Made by a program: the position numbers and the translations under genes. Below, in pieces: positions 2,960 to 62,228 of a stretch of DNA of 64,000 bases (the stretch's first letter is position 1; every line of letters begins with the position of its first letter). Under the pieces are notes generated by a model. It did no database searches, was not told the DNA's origin, and worked only from the letters and a program-made list of their open reading frames with translations. The DNA comes from Solirubrobacteraceae bacterium. Its GTDB lineage: Bacteria; Actinomycetota; Thermoleophilia; Solirubrobacterales; Solirubrobacteraceae. Location of the stretch: NCBI GenBank assembly GCA_031177685.1, contig JAPSGI010000001.1, positions 1 to 64,000 on the forward strand. The letters run 5' to 3'.

Positions 2960-3048
2960 CGGAGGGGGTGGGATTCGAACCCACGAGGGACCTGACGGCC
3001 CCTAGCGGCTTTCAAGGCCGCCGCATTCAACCGCTCTGCCACCCCTCC
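2960..3048 (-). tRNA. tRNA-Ser (anticodon TGA)
   Basis: On the minus strand the sequence starts GGAGGGGTGGCAGAGCGG and ends with the T-loop GGTTCGAATCCC and acceptor CCCCTCC. The anticodon loop reads CTTGAAA, giving anticodon TGA. The long variable arm (between CCGC and the T-stem) is typical of tRNA-Ser. No CCA is encoded. It lies convergent with the LVIVD gene and divergent from the next tRNA-Ser, 60 bases away. Confidence 0.97.
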
Positions 3049-3108
3049 GGGTGGGATGACAGGGTAGCCCCGCCCCCGGTGATCAGCGCCTAAACTGGTC
3101 GCGACCCC

Positions 3109-3197
3109 GGAGAGGTGGCCGAGTGGCTGAAGGCACTCGCCTGCTAAGCGAGTATGGGGTTCACGCTCCATCGCGGGTTCGAATCCCGCCCTCTCCG
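3109..3197 (+). tRNA. tRNA-Ser (anticodon GCT)
   Basis: Starts GGAGAGGTGGCCGAGTGG and ends GGTTCGAATCCCGCCCTCTCC plus discriminator G. The anticodon loop CTGCTAA gives GCT. A long variable arm is present, as expected for tRNA-Ser. No CCA is encoded. It decodes AGC/AGT codons. Confidence 0.97.
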
Positions 3198-3213
3198 CTC
3201 AGATCGAGCGCGC

Positions 3214-3996
3214 TCAGTCGAAGAAGCGGCTCGCGTGGCGCGGCGCGAGCTCCAGCGCGAAGTTCTGGTCGTGCACCCGTTGCACCACGCGGCCGACCTT
3301 GGACTTCAGGCGGTCGCGATCGACAAGCAGCGCCAGGCCGTACGGGCCCGGCATCAGGAACAGCTCGAGCTGGTGCCGGCTCTCGTCCATGAAGTCCTCC
3401 ACGGCGGTGAGCACTCCGTTGCGCGGGCCGCCCTCGTGGACCGCATTGGCGCACTGCGCGTTTTTCCCCGCGGGCGTCAGCTTGGAGACTTTCTGCACGA
3501 TCCCGGAGTACTTGAAGGGCTGACGAGACTCCGCGGGGACGTTGTCGGGCTCGTAGTACATGTCGCGCCGGCCGTAGGGCCAGTCGACGTCGTGCAGGAA
3601 CGTGATGGGCCACTTCCGGGCCCGCTCGAGGATCCGCAGCTCGGAGATGACCGTGTACCAGTTGTGGTCGCCGTCGAGCAGGGCGGCGTCGGGGTCCTTG
3701 ATGAGAGGCAGGGCCTCGAGGCTCAGGGCCTGGTGCATGACGAAGGCTTTGGGGTACGCGCGTTCGTACTGGCCGACGTCGAAGAGCGGCTCGGGGTCGA
3801 TGGAGTGCACGACGCCGCGCCGCGTCGAGAGCCAGCGAAGCAGCTGGACGGTGTTGGCTCCGGTTTCCGCCCCGACCTCCACGACCGTGCGGGGCTTGGC
3901 CGCCGACAGGACGGGGTTCACGACGCGCTGCCAGAACATGTCCATGGCCGTGAGCCTACGCTTGCTCGGCGGGCGCGGCTCGGTTAGCGTCTTCAC
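3214..3996 (-). CDS. Class I SAM-dependent methyltransferase (Methyltransf_24 type)
   Basis: 260 residues from a GTG start. SAM-binding motif I appears as VVEVGAETGANT (about residues 38-49), followed by 'VHSIDPEP' (motif II) and 'AALLDGDHNWYTVISEL', a phrase typical of the Methyltransf_24/cephalosporin-hydroxylase-like group. Members often act on sugars or small molecules; the substrate here is unknown. The gene ends just after tRNA-Ser(GCT) and starts 26 bases from the divergent DUF1326 gene, so the two promoters must overlap. ATG codons downstream (MDMFWQ) are alternative starts. Confidence 0.75.
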   Translation of the reverse strand: MKTLTEPRPPSKRRLTAMDMFWQRVVNPVLSAAKPRTVVEVGAETGANTVQLLRWLSTRRGVVHSIDPEPLFDVGQYERAYPKAFVMHQALSLEALPLIKDPDAALLDGDHNWYTVISELRILERARKWPITFLHDVDWPYGRRDMYYEPDNVPAESRQPFKYSGIVQKVSKLTPAGKNAQCANAVHEGGPRNGVLTAVEDFMDESRHQLELFLMPGPYGLALLVDRDRLKSKVGRVVQRVHDQNFALELAPRHASRFFD

Positions 3997-51065: not shown

Positions 51066-51154
51066 GGAGGGGTGCCGGAGTGGTTGAACGGGGCGGTCTC
51101 GAAAACCGTTGTGGGCCTTACGGTCCACCGAGGGTTCGAATCCCTCCCCCTCCG
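51066..51154 (+). tRNA. tRNA-Ser (anticodon CGA)
   Basis: Starts GGAGGGGTGCCGGAGTGG, ends GGTTCGAATCCC with acceptor CCCCTCC and discriminator G. Anticodon loop CTCGAAA gives CGA. Long variable arm present. No CCA encoded. Confidence 0.97.
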
Positions 51155-51197
51155 CTTACGCCCGCAGGCCGCCGAGGCGGAGGGCCATAATCGGGCT

Positions 51198-52835
51198 GTG
51201 GCAGATGCTGCGGCGCAACGCGAGCGGGGCCGCGCGGGGTATGCGAGGCGCCAGTGGACGGATGCCTACGAAGCGCTCTCCAGCGCCGACCGGGCGGCCC
51301 CGCTGGAGGCCGAGGACCTCGAGCTGCTGGCGACCTCGGCCTACATGCTCGGCCGCGAGGACGACTACTTCGGCGCCCTCGAGCGCGGCTATCACGCGCA
51401 TCTCGAGGCCGGCCAGGCCGAGCGCGCCCTGCGCTGCGCCTTCTGGGTGGGGATCAACCTCGCGCGCCAGGGGGAGATGGGCCGGGCGAGCGGGTGGCTC
51501 GGGCGCGCCCAGCGACTGCTCGAACAGCAACAGCGCGACTGCGTCGAGCGCGGCTATCTCCTGATCCCGGCCATGTTCCGGCACCAGGCCGCGGGCGACT
51601 GGGAAGAGGCCGCCAGCACGGCGGCCAGCGCGGCGGAGATCGGCGAGCGGTTCGGCGACCCGGACCTGTTCGCGCTCGCGGCTCACCAGCAGGGCCACAT
51701 CCTGATCCGTCAGGAGCGCGTCGCGGACGGCCTCGGCCTGCTCGACGAGGCGATGGTCGCGGCCACCTCGGGGGAGCTGTCGCCGATCGTCACCGGCATC
51801 GTCTACTGCGGCGTGATCCTGGCCTGCCAGGAGGCCTACGAGCTGCGCCGCGCCCAGGAGTGGACCGCCGCGCTCACCAGCTGGTGCGCGGAGCAGCCGG
51901 AGATGGTGGCCTTCACCGGCCGTTGCCTGCTGCACCGCGCCGAGATCGTGCAGGTGCGCGGCGGTTGGGACGAGGCACTGGCGGAGGCGGCACGAGCGGT
52001 CGAGCGCAGCGCGCGCACCAACAACCGTGGGGCGGCCGGTGAGGCGTGCTACCGCCAGGGGGAGGTTCACCGCCTGCGCGGGCAGCTCGCGGCCGCGGAG
52101 GAGTCCTACCGGGAGGCGAGCCGGTGGGGGCGCGAGCCCCAGCCGGGTCTGGCCCTCCTGCGGCTCGCGCAGGGCGACCGCGAGGCGGCGGTCACGGGGA
52201 TCCGCCGCGCCGCCGGCGAGGCCACCGATCCCCTGGCGCGCGCCGGACTCCTGCCCGCTCACGTCGAGATCGCGCTGGCCGTGGGCGAGCGCGAGGAGGC
52301 GCGGCGCGCGGCCGGCGAGCTGCAGGAGATCGCCGCGGGGCGGGGGAGCGCGATGCTCGACGCCATGGCGGCGGGCGCCCGGGGAAACGTCGCCCTGGCG
52401 GAGGACGACCCGCCGGGCGCGCTGGTGGCACTGCGCCGAGCGTGGCAGTCATGGCAGGAGCTCGAGGCTCCCTACGAGGCGGCGCGCATGCGGGTGCTGG
52501 TGGGGCTGGCCTGCCGGGCGTTGGGCGACGCGGACGCGGCGGCGCTGGAGCTCGAGGCGGCGCGCGAGACCTTCGCGCAACTCGAGGCGAAGCCCGACCT
52601 GGCGCGGGTCGACTCTCTCCTCACGGGGGAACGCCCCGATGCTCACGGGCTGACGCCGCGTGAGGTCGAGGTGCTGCGCCTGGTGGCCGCCGGGAACAGC
52701 AACCGCGAGATCGCCGCCGCATTGGTGATCAGCGAGCACACGGTGGCGCGCCACCTGCAGAACATCTTCGCCAAGCTCGGCGTCTCCTCGCGGACCGCGG
52801 CGGGCGCCTACGCGTTCGAGCACGACCTCGTCTGA
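51198..52835 (+). CDS. LuxR-family regulator with TPR-like N-terminal region
   Basis: 545 residues from GTG 51198, 43 bases after the tRNA. The first about 470 residues are helical, TPR/MalT-like repeats ('RALRCAFWVGINLARQGEMG', 'AAHQQGHILIRQERVADGLG', 'ACYRQGEVHRLRGQLAAAEE'). C-terminal LuxR helix-turn-helix: 'GLTPREVEVLRLVAAGNSNR' with 'EIAAALVISEHTVARHLQNI'. No ATPase or sensor domain is visible. Probably controls the downstream fusion gene. Confidence 0.87.
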   Translation: MADAAAQRERGRAGYARRQWTDAYEALSSADRAAPLEAEDLELLATSAYMLGREDDYFGALERGYHAHLEAGQAERALRCAFWVGINLARQGEMGRASGWLGRAQRLLEQQQRDCVERGYLLIPAMFRHQAAGDWEEAASTAASAAEIGERFGDPDLFALAAHQQGHILIRQERVADGLGLLDEAMVAATSGELSPIVTGIVYCGVILACQEAYELRRAQEWTAALTSWCAEQPEMVAFTGRCLLHRAEIVQVRGGWDEALAEAARAVERSARTNNRGAAGEACYRQGEVHRLRGQLAAAEESYREASRWGREPQPGLALLRLAQGDREAAVTGIRRAAGEATDPLARAGLLPAHVEIALAVGEREEARRAAGELQEIAAGRGSAMLDAMAAGARGNVALAEDDPPGALVALRRAWQSWQELEAPYEAARMRVLVGLACRALGDADAAALELEAARETFAQLEAKPDLARVDSLLTGERPDAHGLTPREVEVLRLVAAGNSNREIAAALVISEHTVARHLQNIFAKLGVSSRTAAGAYAFEHDLV

Positions 52836-52975: not shown

Positions 52976-54697
52976 ATGACGACGATCGAGAAGCTCCGGC
53001 TCCAGAACTACGAGGTCTGGGAGAACATCGCGCCTTCGTGGGAGCGGCGGCGGGCATTCGTCGAGCGCGCCGGCGCGCCGGTGCGTGACTGGATGGTGAG
53101 GGAGCTCGCGCCACGGCCGGGGGACACCGTGCTCGAGCTCGCCGCGGGCGTCGGCGAGACCGGGTTCGAGGCGGCTCGCATCGTGGGCGCCGGAGGCCGC
53201 CTGATCTCGAGCGACTTCTCCCCGGCGATGCTCGACGCCGCGCGCCGCCGTGGCGGCGAGCTCGGCGTCGACAACGTGGACTACAGGGTGATCGACGCCG
53301 AGCGCATCGAGCTCGAGTCCGGCTCGGTCGACGGGGTGCTCTGTCGCTATGCCTACATGCTGATGGCCGACCCGGCCGCGGCGCTCGCGGAGGCCCATCG
53401 CGTGCTGCGCCCCGGCGGGCGCCTGGCGCTGGCGGTGTTCGGCGCGCCGCAGCGCAATCCGTTCTTCGCGCTGGTCGCGATGAAGCTGGCCCAGCGCGGC
53501 CACCTCCCCCCGCCCGACCCCGAGGGCCCGGGCCTGTTCGGCATGGCGAGCCCGGAGCGCACGACCCGGCTGCTCGAGGCGGCGGGCTTCGACGAGGTGC
53601 GCGTCGAGGAGCTGCCGGCTCCGCGCTTCGGCTTCGCCGACGTGGACGAGTACCTGACCACGGTGGCCGACACCGCCGGGCCGCTCGCGTTGGCGCTGCG
53701 GGGCCTTCCGGACGACGAGCGCGCGCAGATCAAGTCCGAGCTGGAGGAGGCCTTCGCGCCCTTCGCCACCGACGGCGGCTACGAGCTGCCCGGTCTCACG
53801 CTCGCCGTGGTGGCGACGAAGCCGGGGACGAAGACGGCGTCGAACCCCCGCTCGCAGCTCCTCGCAGGGATTCCCGTCGCCGAGCGGCGGCTCGAGCTGG
53901 CCGGGATCCCGACGGCCGTCCTCGAGGGCGGTGCGGGGCCGCCGGTCGTCCTCCTGCACGGGCCCGGCGAGTCCGCCCCGAACTGGCGGTGGGTCATCCC
54001 GCAGCTCGTGGAGACGCACCGCGTGATCGCACCGGACCTGCCCGCCCACGGCTCCACGGCGGCGCCGGACGACGGGCTGGGAGCCGAGCGCGTGCTCGGC
54101 TGGCTCGGCGCGCTGATCGAACGCACGTGCGACTCGCCGCCGGCGCTCGTCGGGCATGTGCTCGGCGGCGCGATCGGCGCCCGCTTCGCGATCGCGGCCG
54201 GCGAGCGCCTCAGCCGCCTGGTGCTCGTCGACTCCCTCGGCCTCGCCCGCTTCCGCCCGTCCGCCCGGTTCGCGCTCGGGCTGGTCGGCTTCGTGACGAG
54301 GCCGAGCGAGCGCAGCTACGACCGGTTCATGCGCCAGTGCAGCTACGACCTCGACGCGCTGCGCGAGCGGATGGGCGAGGAATGGGAGCCGTTCGCCTAC
54401 TACAACCTGGAGCTCGCGCGCGCGCCGAACGCGAAGGTCGCGGGCAAGCTGCTGCGCCGCCTCGGCATCCCGCCGATCCCGCCGGAGGAGCTGGCGCGCA
54501 TCGCCGTCCCCACCAGCCTGATCTGGGGCCGCCACGACCGCGCCAACCGGCTGGAGGTAGCGCAGGCGGCCCACGACCGCTACGGGTGGCCGCTGCACGT
54601 GATCGAGGACTCCGCCGACGATCCGGCACGCGACCAACCCGAGGCCTTCCTGCGGGCACTGCATGTCGCGCTCGGCAGGACGGTGACGGCCACGTAG
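52976..54697 (+). CDS. Methyltransferase fused to an inactive alpha/beta hydrolase
   Basis: 573 residues from ATG. Residues about 1-285: class I SAM methyltransferase ('VLELAAGVGETGFEAARIVG', 'LISSDFSPAMLDAARRRGGE', 'EAHRVLRPGGRLALAVFG'). Residues about 290-573: alpha/beta hydrolase fold ('VVLLHGPGESAPNWRWVIPQ', 'PTSLIWGRHDRANRLEVAQA'). The nucleophile elbow reads GHVLGG, so V395 replaces Ser, and the catalytic His position is D548 (VIEDSADDPARDQ). The hydrolase half therefore looks catalytically dead and may bind a ligand or partner. The 3' end contains direct-repeat copy 2. Confidence 0.87.
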   Translation: MTTIEKLRLQNYEVWENIAPSWERRRAFVERAGAPVRDWMVRELAPRPGDTVLELAAGVGETGFEAARIVGAGGRLISSDFSPAMLDAARRRGGELGVDNVDYRVIDAERIELESGSVDGVLCRYAYMLMADPAAALAEAHRVLRPGGRLALAVFGAPQRNPFFALVAMKLAQRGHLPPPDPEGPGLFGMASPERTTRLLEAAGFDEVRVEELPAPRFGFADVDEYLTTVADTAGPLALALRGLPDDERAQIKSELEEAFAPFATDGGYELPGLTLAVVATKPGTKTASNPRSQLLAGIPVAERRLELAGIPTAVLEGGAGPPVVLLHGPGESAPNWRWVIPQLVETHRVIAPDLPAHGSTAAPDDGLGAERVLGWLGALIERTCDSPPALVGHVLGGAIGARFAIAAGERLSRLVLVDSLGLARFRPSARFALGLVGFVTRPSERSYDRFMRQCSYDLDALRERMGEEWEPFAYYNLELARAPNAKVAGKLLRRLGIPPIPPEELARIAVPTSLIWGRHDRANRLEVAQAAHDRYGWPLHVIEDSADDPARDQPEAFLRALHVALGRTVTAT

Positions 54698-54916: not shown

Positions 54917-55246
54917 TCAGCCGTCTGAACTGGCGTCGTCCACGATCGGGATCCGCTCGCCGATCCGGCACAGCTCGAGGACCTGCCGGACGGCGGGCTG
55001 GGGCTGCTCGATCGCCACGGACCAGCCCTCCGAGCGAGCGCGCATGTCCAGGCTCATCAGCACGCGGATCCCCGACGAATCGATGAAGGACAGGTCGCGG
55101 ACGTCCATCACGACGCGCGAGCCGCTGGCCACGGCGCCGACGGCCTCCTCGACCGCGTCCACGACCGACACGTCGAGCTCGCCGCGCAGCGCGAGCCTGA
55201 TCTCGTCGTCGGTGGCGATGCGGTCGACGTGGAAGCCCTGCTGCAT
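54917..55246 (-). CDS. STAS-domain anti-anti-sigma factor
   Basis: 109 residues from ATG. SpoIIAA/RsbV-like: 'IRLALRGELDVSVVDAVEEA', phosphorylation-site Ser in 'LSFIDSSGIRVLMSLDMRAR'. Phosphorylation would control binding to an anti-sigma kinase. Directly follows the PP2C gene with no gap, implying that phosphatase dephosphorylates it. The kinase and sigma factor are not in the window. Confidence 0.92.
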   Translation of the reverse strand: MQQGFHVDRIATDDEIRLALRGELDVSVVDAVEEAVGAVASGSRVVMDVRDLSFIDSSGIRVLMSLDMRARSEGWSVAIEQPQPAVRQVLELCRIGERIPIVDDASSDG

Positions 55247-56533
55247 CTACCGGACCACCTCGAGCGCGAGCGCGGCCGCGTCGTCGCGCGCCGTCACCTC
55301 GGGCGAGTCGAGCAGCTCGCGCAGCTGCGCGACGAGACCCGCGGCGGTCCGGGGGCGGGCGTCCTGCAGGCGGCGCAGGAGCCCGCCCGAGCCGAGCAGC
55401 CCCTCAGGGGTGCGCACGTCGGTGAGGCCGTCGGTGTAGAGCAGGAGCAGGTCGCCGGGCGAGAGCTGGACGCGGTCGTCGCGCAGCGAGAAGTCCGGGC
55501 GCCAGCCGGCCGGTGGGCCGGACGCGCCGATCTGCGTCGCCGAGCCGTCGGCGCGCAGTACGAGCGCGGGCGGATGGCCGGCGCTGGCCACGCTGACCGA
55601 GAGGCCGTCGGTGTCGCGGCGCGCGAACGCGAGCAGCAGCGTGCAGAAGTGCTCGAGCTCGGCCTCCTTGCGGCCGAGCAGCATGGCCCGGTTCACCGTC
55701 TGCAGCACCTCGCTCGGTGCCGTGGCCGACAGCGATGCCGAGCGGACCGTGTGGCGTCCCAAGGCCGTGACCGCGGCGGCCTTCGGGCCCTTGCCGCTGA
55801 CGTCGCCCACCGCCAGGACGAGCGTGCCGTCGTTCGCGCCGCCGACCTCGAAGGCGTCGTAGAAGTCGCCCCCGACCTCGTGGCCCACCGCGGGCACGTA
55901 CAGCGAGTCCAGCTCGAGCCCCTCGACCGTCGGAACCTCGGGAGGCAGCAGGCTCGTCTGCAGCGAGCGTGCGAGCGTCTCGGCCTGGTGGCGCAGCCGG
56001 TGCTCCTCGGCGATCGCCCGGCGCGCGGCGAGCCGCAGCTCGAGCTCGTCCATCACGATCGCGGCCATGTCGGCCAGCGTGGCGGCCTCCTGCGCGGGAA
56101 GCTCGCGCGGCGCCACGTCGATCACGCACAGGGTCCCGAGCTTGAATCCGTCGTGCGTGACGAGGGGCGCGCCGGCGTAGAAGCGCAGTCCCAGCTCGCC
56201 GGCGACGAGCGGGTTGGCGAGCGTGCGCGGGTCGGTCGCCGCGTTCTCGACGATCCACGGATCGTTCTGCAGGATCGCCGACGCGCACAGGCCGGGGTCG
56301 CGCCCGATCTCGTCCACCTCGATGCCGTGGTGGGACTTGAACCAGATGCGGTCCTCGTCCACGATGCTCACGATCGCGATCGGCACCTCGAAGTGCGCGG
56401 CCGCCACGGCGGTGATCCGGTCGAACGCGCCGTCGGGCGGCGTGTCGAGGACGTCGTAGCGCCGGATCGCCTCCAGGCGCTGCGGCTCGTCGTCCGGGAC
56501 CGGCACCCGCAGGGTGGCTTCTCCGCTCGCCAT
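55247..56533 (-). CDS. GAF-PP2C (SpoIIE-type) phosphatase
   Basis: 428 residues from ATG 56533. N-terminal GAF domain (about 15-165, 'YDVLDTPPDGAFDRITAVAA', 'FYAGAPLVTHDGFKLGTLCV'), coiled-coil linker ('AIAEEHRLRHQAETLARSLQ'), then a SpoIIE PP2C domain from about 200 with metal motifs 'GHEVGGDFYDAF', 'AVGDVSGKGPKAAAV' and 'LLLYTDGLTDVR'. It would dephosphorylate the STAS protein encoded right after it, in response to a GAF ligand or redox/light signal. Confidence 0.92.
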   Translation of the reverse strand: MASGEATLRVPVPDDEPQRLEAIRRYDVLDTPPDGAFDRITAVAAAHFEVPIAIVSIVDEDRIWFKSHHGIEVDEIGRDPGLCASAILQNDPWIVENAATDPRTLANPLVAGELGLRFYAGAPLVTHDGFKLGTLCVIDVAPRELPAQEAATLADMAAIVMDELELRLAARRAIAEEHRLRHQAETLARSLQTSLLPPEVPTVEGLELDSLYVPAVGHEVGGDFYDAFEVGGANDGTLVLAVGDVSGKGPKAAAVTALGRHTVRSASLSATAPSEVLQTVNRAMLLGRKEAELEHFCTLLLAFARRDTDGLSVSVASAGHPPALVLRADGSATQIGASGPPAGWRPDFSLRDDRVQLSPGDLLLLYTDGLTDVRTPEGLLGSGGLLRRLQDARPRTAAGLVAQLRELLDSPEVTARDDAAALALEVVR

Positions 56534-56633
56534 GGGCGCTGGACTGTAGCGAGCATTTCGCGAACTTGATGCTTCGGCGCCGAAATCCGGTGTGGGCAGG
56601 GATGCGTGCAGCGCAGCACGGCATACTCGCGAC

Positions 56634-58208
56634 GTGCGAACGGCCCACGCCTCCGACGTTCGCCTGGCGGAGTTGATCGCCGCGCTGTCCCTTGCCACCG
56701 ACCTCGGACTGGGGCAGCCGATGGAGCACGTGCTGCGCTCGTGCCGGATCGCTCTGCGCCTCGCCGAGGAGGTCGGCTGCGACGAGGACGAGCGCGCCGT
56801 CACCTACTACGTCGCGCTGCTGGCGTGGATCTGCTGCCACGCCGACGCCTACGAGCAGGCGGCCTGGTTCGGCGACGACATCGTGCTGCGGGCCGGGACC
56901 TACGACGTCGACATGGCGGGGCTGCCCGCGCTGATGTTCATGCTGCGCCATGCCGGCGCGGGCAGCGCGCCCCTGCGCCGCCTGCGGACCGCCGGCGCGC
57001 TGGTCGCGAGCGGCGGCAAGCAGATCGAGCAGTGGGACATGACGCACTGCACGCTGGCTGGCCTGTTCGCCCTGCGGCTGGGGCTCGGCCCGGAGGTCCG
57101 CGACCCGCTGCTGCAGGTCTTCGAGCGCTGGGACGGCCGCGGCGCGCCGCAGGGACTGGCGCGCGAGCAGCTCGGCCTCCCGGTGCGGCTCGTGCACCTG
57201 GCGGAGATCGTCGAGGTCTTCCATCGCCGGGGCGGAGTGGCGGCCGCGGTCGCCGTGGCGCGCGATCGCCGCGGCACCCAGTTCGACCCCGCGCTCGTGG
57301 AGAGCTTCACCGCGAACGCGAGCCGGCTGCTCGGCGGCCTCGACGACGGGTCCAGCTGGGACGCGGTGATCGCCGCCGAGCCGGGGCTGCGCCCTCGCCT
57401 GCTCGGCGACCAGCTGGACGGCGCCCTGGAGGCGATGGCGGACTTCGCAGACCTGAAGTCGCCGCACACGGCGGGGCATTCGCGCGGCGTGGCGGCGCTC
57501 GCGGCCGAGGCGGCGCGCACCCTGGGCCTGCCGGCGGCCGAGGTCACCGACCTGCGCCGGGCCGGGCTCGTGCACGACCTCGGGCGCATGGGCGTCTCGA
57601 ACACGATCTGGGACAAGCCCGGACCGCTGTCGGCTGCGGAGCTCGAACGCGTGCGCCTGCATCCCTATTTGACGGAGCGCATCCTCGCCGCGTCACCGGG
57701 CCTCGCCGCCATCGGCGCGACGGCCGCGCTGCACCACGAGCGCCTCGACGGCTCCGGCTACCCGCGCGGCCTGAGCGCGAGCGCGCTCGGGCAGGGAGCC
57801 CGCGTCCTCGCCGCCGCCGACGCCTATCACGCGATGACCGAGCCGCGCGCGCGCCGCCCGGCGCTCTCGTCCGAGGAGGCCGCGACGCAACTGCGCGACG
57901 AGGTTCGGGTGGGGCGGCTCGACGGCGAGGCCGTCAACGCGGTCCTGCGCGCCGCGGGCCACCGCGTGCGCGGGCGGCGCGAGTGGCCGGCCGGACTCAC
58001 CGCCCGCGAGGCGGAGGTGCTGGGGCTGCTCGCGCGCGGCCACTCCAACAAGGAGATCGCCGGCCGGCTCTTCCTCAGCCCGAAGACCGTCGGCAACCAC
58101 GTCGAGCACATCTACGCGAAGATCGGCGTCTCCAGCCGGGCCGCCGCGACGCTCTTCGCCACGCAGCACGGACTGGTGGGCGCCTTCGAGCCGGTGCAGG
58201 CGAAATGA
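56634..58208 (+). CDS. Tandem HD domain protein with C-terminal LuxR HTH
   Basis: 524 residues from GTG 56634. First HD-like unit (about 20-190) is degenerate: the HD pair is lost ('[15 protein letters not shown]') though '[13 protein letters not shown]' recalls the GYP region. Second unit (about 270-430) is intact HD-GYP: '[11 protein letters not shown]', '[20 protein letters not shown]' and '[15 protein letters not shown]'. A LuxR helix-turn-helix follows ('[20 protein letters not shown]', '[20 protein letters not shown]'). It may link c-di-GMP hydrolysis or binding with transcription. Divergent from the PP2C gene. Confidence 0.88.
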
Positions 58209-61427: not shown

Positions 61428-62228
61428 ATGAGCACGACGGTGGCGGAGAGCAGCAGCGCGGCGCGGTGGGGCCGGACGTGGGGCGCCCGCCCGCGCGACT
61501 GGGCGGTCGTGGAGGCGCAGCAGCTGCCGATCTACGAGGAGGCGCTGCGGCGGGCCGGCCTGGGGGCCGGCGACCGGGTGCTGGACGTCGGCTGCGGCAC
61601 GGGCGCGTTCCTGCGCGCCGCCACGGACCGCGGGGCCGAGGTCTGCGGGCTCGACGCCTCGCAGGCGCTCCTTGAAATCGCGCGCGAGCGCGTGCCCGAG
61701 GCCGAGCTGCGCCACGGCGACATGGAGCGCCTGCCCTACGACGACGACTCCTTCGACGTCGTCACCGGGTTCAACTCGTTCTTCTTCGCCGACGACATGG
61801 TCGCGGCGCTGCGCGAGGCGCGCCGCGTGGCGCGGCCGGGCGCCCGCGTCGTGATCCAGGTGTGGGGCCGGCCCGAGGCGTGCGACCTGACCGCGATGAA
61901 GGGCGCGGTCCGGCCGTTTTTGCCACCGCCCCCGCCGGGCGCGCCCGCGCCGCCGGCGCTGTGGGAGCCCGGCGTTCTGGAGGAGATCGCCTCCGCGGCG
62001 GGGCTGGCGCCCGGGGAGGCCTTCGACCTGCGCACGGAGCTCGAGTACGCGGACGAGGACGCGCTCGCGCGAGGCATCCTCTCGGCGGCCCTGGCGGTCG
62101 AGGCGGTGGCCGCGGCCGGCGAGGAGCCCGTGCGCGCGGCGATCGTCGACGCGCTCGCGCCCTACCGCACGCCGGACGGCGGCTACCGCCTGTCCAACGA
62201 GTGGCGCTTCCTCCTGGCGACCGCGTGA
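61428..62228 (+). CDS. SAM-dependent methyltransferase (UbiE-like)
   Basis: 266 residues from ATG with GGGAGGAGCGG. Motif I 'RVLDVGCGTGAFLRAATDRG', 'VCGLDASQALLEIARERV' and 'GDMERLPYDDDSFDVVTGFN', then 'VARPGARVVIQVWGRPE'. Acts on a small molecule. Its promoter is shared with the divergent padR gene, which may respond to the toxic or signal compound that the enzyme modifies. Confidence 0.9.
   Translation: MSTTVAESSSAARWGRTWGARPRDWAVVEAQQLPIYEEALRRAGLGAGDRVLDVGCGTGAFLRAATDRGAEVCGLDASQALLEIARERVPEAELRHGDMERLPYDDDSFDVVTGFNSFFFADDMVAALREARRVARPGARVVIQVWGRPEACDLTAMKGAVRPFLPPPPPGAPAPPALWEPGVLEEIASAAGLAPGEAFDLRTELEYADEDALARGILSAALAVEAVAAAGEEPVRAAIVDALAPYRTPDGGYRLSNEWRFLLATA

Follow-up and report, generated by a model that had tools for sequence, protein, structure and literature searches.

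Aes of Escherichia coli is an alpha/beta-hydrolase (ABH)-fold protein with an intact catalytic triad, and the PqsE-RhlR pair is a further precedent for a partner of a LuxR-type regulator (PDB entry 7r3e holds both proteins). Aes acts on MalT, a regulator that carries a LuxR-type GerE domain (PMC5052742). Non-enzymatic proteins with the ABH fold, among them NDRG3 and the neuroligins, have the triad replaced (PMC7022630), and a working methyltransferase shares a single chain with an ABH domain in the BioG-BioC protein of biotin synthesis in Bacteroides fragilis (PMC3494674). The closest solved folds to the ABH domain described here are those of the meta-cleavage C-C hydrolases HsaD, BphD, CarC and DxnB2 (VIA Z 29.9-33.5), which share its lid insertion and are also among its best PDB sequence matches (E 1e-21 to 1e-24). 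In a published docking model of HsaD, Pro47, Met177, His269 and Trp270 are among the residues that touch the ligand (PMC5603573).

A methyltransferase joined to a degenerate hydrolase fold

The window, a stretch of 64,000 nucleotides from a Solirubrobacteraceae bacterium, encodes a fusion protein directly downstream of a LuxR-type regulator. Its features are given below, together with residue counts from an alignment of the ABH family in which rows are divided into those without the nucleophilic Ser (no-Ser) and those with it (Ser).

51072..52835, + strand: TPR-type LuxR-family regulator gene (GerE 68 bits, TPR_12 weak at 20 bits; start uncertain, homology from about 51162-51207)
52976-54697, + strand: methyltransferase-ABH fusion ORF, ATG start, one continuous frame, 573 aa
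52976..53830, + strand: class I SAM methyltransferase domain, residues 1-285 (Methyltransf_11 68.8 bits, cut-off 21.2)
53819..53845, + strand: short linker, about residues 282-290, frame unbroken across the junction DNA
53846..54694, + strand: degenerate ABH-fold domain, residues 291-573 (Abhydrolase_6 63.3 bits)
53969..53971, + strand: Glu332 in the oxyanion loop (HGPGE), no-Ser-specific (E in 31/34 no-Ser and 0/6 Ser rows)
54152..54169, + strand: nucleophile elbow GHVLGG, residues 393-398, with Val395 where Ser is expected
54338..54340, + strand: Cys455 in the lid, no-Ser-specific (C in 34/34 no-Ser and 0/6 Ser rows)
54536..54538, + strand: Asp521, the classical catalytic acid, retained (D in 32/34 no-Ser and 6/6 Ser rows)
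54617..54622, + strand: Asp548-Asp549, replacing the catalytic His and its neighbour (each D in 32/34 no-Ser rows; A in one and N in one at 548)

The sequence-only reading of this DNA had proposed a methyltransferase fused to an ABH domain without Ser and His, and the open reading frame, Val395, Asp548 and the Pfam matches on the 573-residue protein (methyltransferase at about 48-156 and ABH at 322-560, both well over their curated cut-offs) bear this out. Its further statement that the fold and oxyanion loop are kept agrees with the presence of the HG oxyanion motif and with the AlphaFold2 model of the separate ABH half (pLDDT 92.5, pTM 0.91), whose best VIA matches are C-C hydrolases (for DxnB2, Z 33.5 and rmsd 2.0 over 262 residues). 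The methyltransferase half, joined to it through a linker of about nine residues and also modelled separately (pLDDT 88.8, pTM 0.88), has G58, G60, D80 and D107 invariant across eight aligned rows; judged by its domain score and SAM-motif residues it is a class I SAM methyltransferase, and it looks intact.

Homologous fusions, which the same reading had named as the place to check, have lost Ser and His too. In the source genome itself, a TPR-LuxR gene is followed by an ABH-FAD oxidase fusion of 764 aa with Gly for Ser and Asp for His (L065), and on a Sinorhizobium meliloti plasmid a TPR-LuxR gene is followed by an ABH-methyltransferase of 587 aa with Ile for Ser and Asp for His (L166). Because the methyltransferase of the latter belongs to another subfamily, the one common beside the ABH (26% identity to that of the window), and stands in reversed order, methyltransferase-ABH fusions probably arose at least twice. 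Haloterrigena and Halorussus plasmids carry methyltransferase and ABH as two adjoining genes in the same order as the window. A further open frame, joining an HD-LuxR regulator to the ABH (L114), lies at a contig end in a 74% complete genome; it could come from a lost stop codon and is treated as suggestive. The window-type fusion was seen in the source genome only; a search of a single genome of the same genus, 72% complete, did not find it. An assembly artefact is nevertheless unlikely, given the different fusion of the same family in this genome and the reversed fusion in a plasmid record labelled complete. In another genome (L169, G301:C198:13000-21000), a TPR-LuxR gene and an HD-LuxR gene stand in a row with a methyltransferase that shares 44% identity with the methyltransferase half of the window protein, which hints at where the fused methyltransferase may have come from.

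Coupled loss of Ser and His and the residues that accompany it

A protein scan of public genomes gave 26 loci, with most ABH matches 48-72% identical to the window domain, and plasmid records supplied two members from haloarchaea and the one from Sinorhizobium meliloti. Carriers include Actinomycetota, Rhizobiales (Phyllobacteriaceae) and haloarchaea, among others. At E 1e-40, with carriers counted, the family occurs in at least 3/249 genomes of the window organism's own class, at least 15/396 of its phylum, at least 3/200 of the family of a Streptomyces carrier and at least 1/249 of the order of a Mesorhizobium carrier. Such counts are lower bounds, the first look having scored six candidates per genome for the ABH and three for the LuxR-type regulator, the cut-off for which was E 1e-90. 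None of thirteen viral pattern matches was a relative. The distribution is rare and patchy across bacteria and archaea, as that of a mobile cassette would be.

The alignment used for the active site has 41 full-length rows, comprising 34 no-Ser rows, six Ser rows (L057, L110, L111, L112, L113 and L116) and one outgroup. Fragments left out of the 34/6 count read Leu395 and Asp548 (L056), Asp548 (L059), Thr395 (L114) and Leu395 (L115) where their sites are legible. Also left out, for their short ends, were L062, which reads Asp, and L064, which reads His, lacks the elbow and is of unsettled membership. Two family copies, L115 and L039, look broken; the haloarchaeal L039 copy (2971-3867) has an in-frame TGA where its relatives have Trp, reflecting either a pseudogene or a sequencing error.

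Loss of the two catalytic residues is coupled. Every no-Ser row also lacks His (34/34; Asp in 32, Ala in one, Asn in one), and each of the six Ser rows keeps His at 548 and has a residue other than Asp at 549. Since the loss is common to all 34 no-Ser rows, the window protein is not a recent mutant, and that explanation is rejected. The nucleophile position itself varies among no-Ser members (L, V, I, G or M). Six close no-Ser pairs give dN/dS values of 0.17-0.39, and the ABH proteins are therefore under purifying selection; what had been noticed in a single protein thus extends across the family and is maintained under constraint. In addition, 62 listed ABH columns reach at least 94% identity, though one is legible in just four rows. 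A tree built on the complete alignment unites the no-Ser rows in one clade (support 95/92, 31 rows) and leaves the Ser rows outside it; once the site columns are masked, the best topology needs two changes, and a single no-Ser clade is neither rejected (p-AU 0.289) nor demonstrated. For the alternative that another Ser/His pair completes the site, a conserved-column search of the aligned family rows gave no sign, finding no replacement pair specific to the no-Ser rows. The only Ser or His positions kept there at 80% or more are H328 (of the HG motif), H358 and S361, and H328 and S361 are also common to the Ser-bearing rows.

Five of 270 columns behave as switches, defined as columns where one residue is held by at least 90% of no-Ser rows and never by a Ser row. 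These are Glu332 (31/34; G in two of the remaining rows and D in one), Phe432 (31/34), Cys455 (34/34), Asp548 (32/34) and Asp549 (32/34). Control splits among the no-Ser rows gave no such column for the six Streptomyces rows and none for the four alphaproteobacterial rows with L065, and a third split, on three HD-LuxR rows with a shortened oxyanion loop, gave seven. When aligned to HsaD, with numbering anchored on Ser114 and His269, Glu332, Cys455, Asp548 and Asp549 correspond to Pro47, Met177, His269 and Trp270, and Phe432 aligns with no listed contact. At least four of five switch columns would fall on HsaD contacts by chance with a probability of about 2.5e-4; with column 548 set aside, the figure for at least three of four is 2.2e-3. 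Both values assume 22 contact columns among 241 (four being illegible in the source text) and treat neighbouring columns as independent. Because four of the five switch columns align with HsaD ligand contacts, the pocket appears to have been rebuilt around a new set of conserved residues and not merely to have died, with positions placed by sequence alignment to HsaD and contacts taken from a docking model. The earlier description of a dead half is too simple for a site that bears conserved Glu332, Cys455, Asp548 and Asp549, all absent from the Ser relatives.

Gene company and candidate roles of the ABH domain

Forty-five loci holding the ABH were read, 39 of them no-Ser or fragment and six Ser. 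Of the 36 no-Ser loci that extend upstream of the ABH, 29 have a LuxR-type gene there in the same orientation (TPR-LuxR in 25, HD-LuxR in four), usually 100-400 nt from the ABH. The other upstream positions are taken by a haloarchaeal regulator of the HVO_A0261/FilR1 type (3/36) or hold no known regulator (4/36). The interval between LuxR gene and ABH contains the fused methyltransferase half in the window and a flavin monooxygenase gene in L109; a flavin monooxygenase gene occupies this position both in L109, where Ser and His are lost, and in L112 and L113, where they are kept. Among no-Ser loci complete downstream, 22/36 have an adjoining or fused tailoring enzyme, namely a methyltransferase of one subfamily (11), an FAD oxidase (eight), or a window-type methyltransferase, a third type of methyltransferase or a flavin monooxygenase (one each). 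Twelve of the 36 have no tailoring gene of the types searched beside the ABH, another has only a fragment of one, and in another the gene is 694 nt off. The Ser rows are accompanied by a divergent HxlR regulator (3/6), by TPR-LuxR and a flavin monooxygenase (2/6) or by none of these (1/6).

Further genes lie close to the fusion in the window. On the minus strand beside the cassette, 54917-55246 encodes a STAS-domain protein and 55247-56803 what its sequence suggests is a GAF/PP2C-type phosphatase, which form a possible anti-sigma antagonist pair. On the plus strand, 56592-58208 encodes an HD-domain LuxR regulator (HD_5 133.6 bits, GerE 67.4 bits) with no adjoining ABH, although regulators of this type stand ahead of family ABHs in L058, L061, L109 and L114; 58618-59991 encodes a berberine-bridge-type FAD oxidase that shares about 45% identity with the FAD half of L065; and at 61428-62228, near the cluster, lies another class I methyltransferase-like gene. 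Genes of these kinds are again found together in L142 (G000:C4:22408-31127), where an FAD oxidase gene followed by a distant TPR-LuxR gene (31%) lies near an unrelated ABH.

The reading to which we give an even chance makes the ABH half a partner to small-molecule tailoring enzymes, binding or processing substrate without hydrolysis, with a site rebuilt after serine hydrolysis was lost. The lineage would have abandoned serine hydrolysis and rebuilt its site around Glu332, Cys455, Asp548 and Asp549, and its partners would be class I methyltransferases, berberine-bridge-type FAD oxidases and flavin monooxygenases in short LuxR-controlled cassettes. Placing the ABH behind the methyltransferase, as in the window fusion, would let both act on one ligand. 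The switch residues probably line the pocket, which may bind the substrate or product of the partner without hydrolysing it, so that the two halves would co-operate. In favour of this reading count the coupled loss, the switch columns and their match to HsaD contacts, the dN/dS values, the confidently modelled fold, the tailoring enzymes of 22/36 loci, the fusions to different enzymes and the adjoining gene pairs of the two haloarchaeal plasmids. A more specific form, in which the Ser-His site was exchanged for a lid Cys and three carboxylates, conserved in bacteria and haloarchaea alike, that serve non-hydrolytic chemistry, or bind a metal or reactive ligand, together with the paired or fused enzyme, is possible though on balance unlikely. 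The earlier proposal of a ligand-binding domain fits these data, but its more specific form, a regulatory domain for the methyltransferase, is not borne out because the ABH is mostly a stand-alone protein and is elsewhere fused to an FAD oxidase or shares a frame with an HD-LuxR regulator. Against the tailoring-partner reading stand the 12/36 no-Ser loci with no such gene beside the ABH, the occurrence of the same LuxR subfamily and enzyme types without it, and the fact that the window methyltransferase does not belong to the subfamily most often seen with the ABH (27-32% identity).

The chief rival, possible though on balance unlikely, is that the ABH is a ligand-responsive co-regulator which would bind the TPR-LuxR or HD-LuxR protein of the adjoining gene and switch it in response to a small molecule, much as Aes acts on MalT (PMC5052742). 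The upstream LuxR-type genes of 29/36 no-Ser loci compare with a single TPR-LuxR gene, at 31% identity, within 4 kb of the other 39 ABH matches in the same genome (1/37 regions). The two TPR-LuxR genes nearest to that of the window, itself and a 61% paralogue lying directly upstream of a family ABH in the same genome (the next is at 35%), are also the two that precede family ABHs, and the open HD-LuxR-ABH frame of L114 points the same way. On the other hand, the TPR-LuxR subfamily occurs in at least 52/396 genomes, as against at least 15/396 for the ABH family. Twenty TPR-LuxR loci, taken near the top of the 82 listed and none of them already seen beside a family ABH, contain no family ABH (one carries an ABH at 31% identity). 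Downstream they have flavin monooxygenases (five), the common methyltransferase subfamily (five, one at 31%), an FAD oxidase (one) and others. Since other genes follow TPR-LuxR in these loci, the regulator can do without the ABH; the haloarchaeal members, moreover, follow an unrelated regulator, and 4/36 no-Ser loci have no known regulator. The ABH is one optional member of a mix-and-match enzyme set under a single regulator type, since the same LuxR subfamily and enzyme types occur without it.

It is rather improbable that the ABH is still catalytic, having replaced serine chemistry by a new mechanism that relies on Cys455 together with the acidic residues, or on a metal that these bind. Purifying selection, the presence of Cys455 in all no-Ser rows and no Ser row, and the near-invariance of Asp548, Asp549 and Glu332 would suit such an enzyme, but Cys455 lies in the lid, away from the elbow, and variation of Glu332 in 3/34 rows and Asp548 in 2/34 is hard to square with strict catalysis. 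A decaying or purely structural remnant, suggested by drift at the nucleophile position, by the absence of the acid D521 from 2/34 rows and by the broken-looking L115 and L039 copies, is very unlikely in view of the dN/dS values, the 62 columns at 94% identity or more, the fixation of new residues and the recurrence of fusion. Scarcely credible is a bifunctional enzyme of the BioC-BioH/BioG type, a methyltransferase and an active esterase in one pathway, which would share the two folds and has a working published counterpart in BioG-BioC (PMC3494674), but Ser and His are gone and the window protein scores far under the cut-offs for BioC (37 bits against 184.95) and BioH (41.2 bits against 206.95).

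Degenerate ABH proteins are readily annotated "alpha/beta hydrolase", a label borne by two of the haloarchaeal members, and the window protein points to a little-studied family whose members probably handle small molecules but do not cut them. Related cassettes contain close relatives that have the triad and others that lack it, making both the conversion of a hydrolase and the role of the triad-replacing residues directly testable, and the recurrent fusions point to the partner enzymes to assay first.

Comparison with known systems

Precedents exist separately for inactive ABH proteins and for methyltransferase-ABH fusions. In the open-licence papers searched, no prokaryotic ABH family was found that combines coupled loss of Ser and His with a newly conserved set of residues and fusions of several kinds. 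Compared with hydrolases of the HsaD and BphD type, the window ABH keeps the lid and the acid D521 and is without Ser and His, and it scores 47.6 bits against the curated HsaD family, far below the cut-off of 400. BioG-BioC has two active halves and a conserved triad, whereas the window fusion has lost the triad. Aes-MalT likewise pairs an ABH-fold protein with a regulator bearing a LuxR-type GerE domain, but Aes has an intact triad, and the TPR-LuxR protein of the window reaches 41.7 bits against the MalT family, far below the cut-off of 537. As in the non-enzymatic ABH-fold proteins, the nucleophile and His are replaced and the fold is kept under selection, here with the acid retained. NDRG3 and the neuroligins, however, are animal proteins that bind partners, whereas the window family is found in bacteria and archaea, is tied to tailoring enzymes and, unlike them, keeps the acid and bears a new set of conserved residues.
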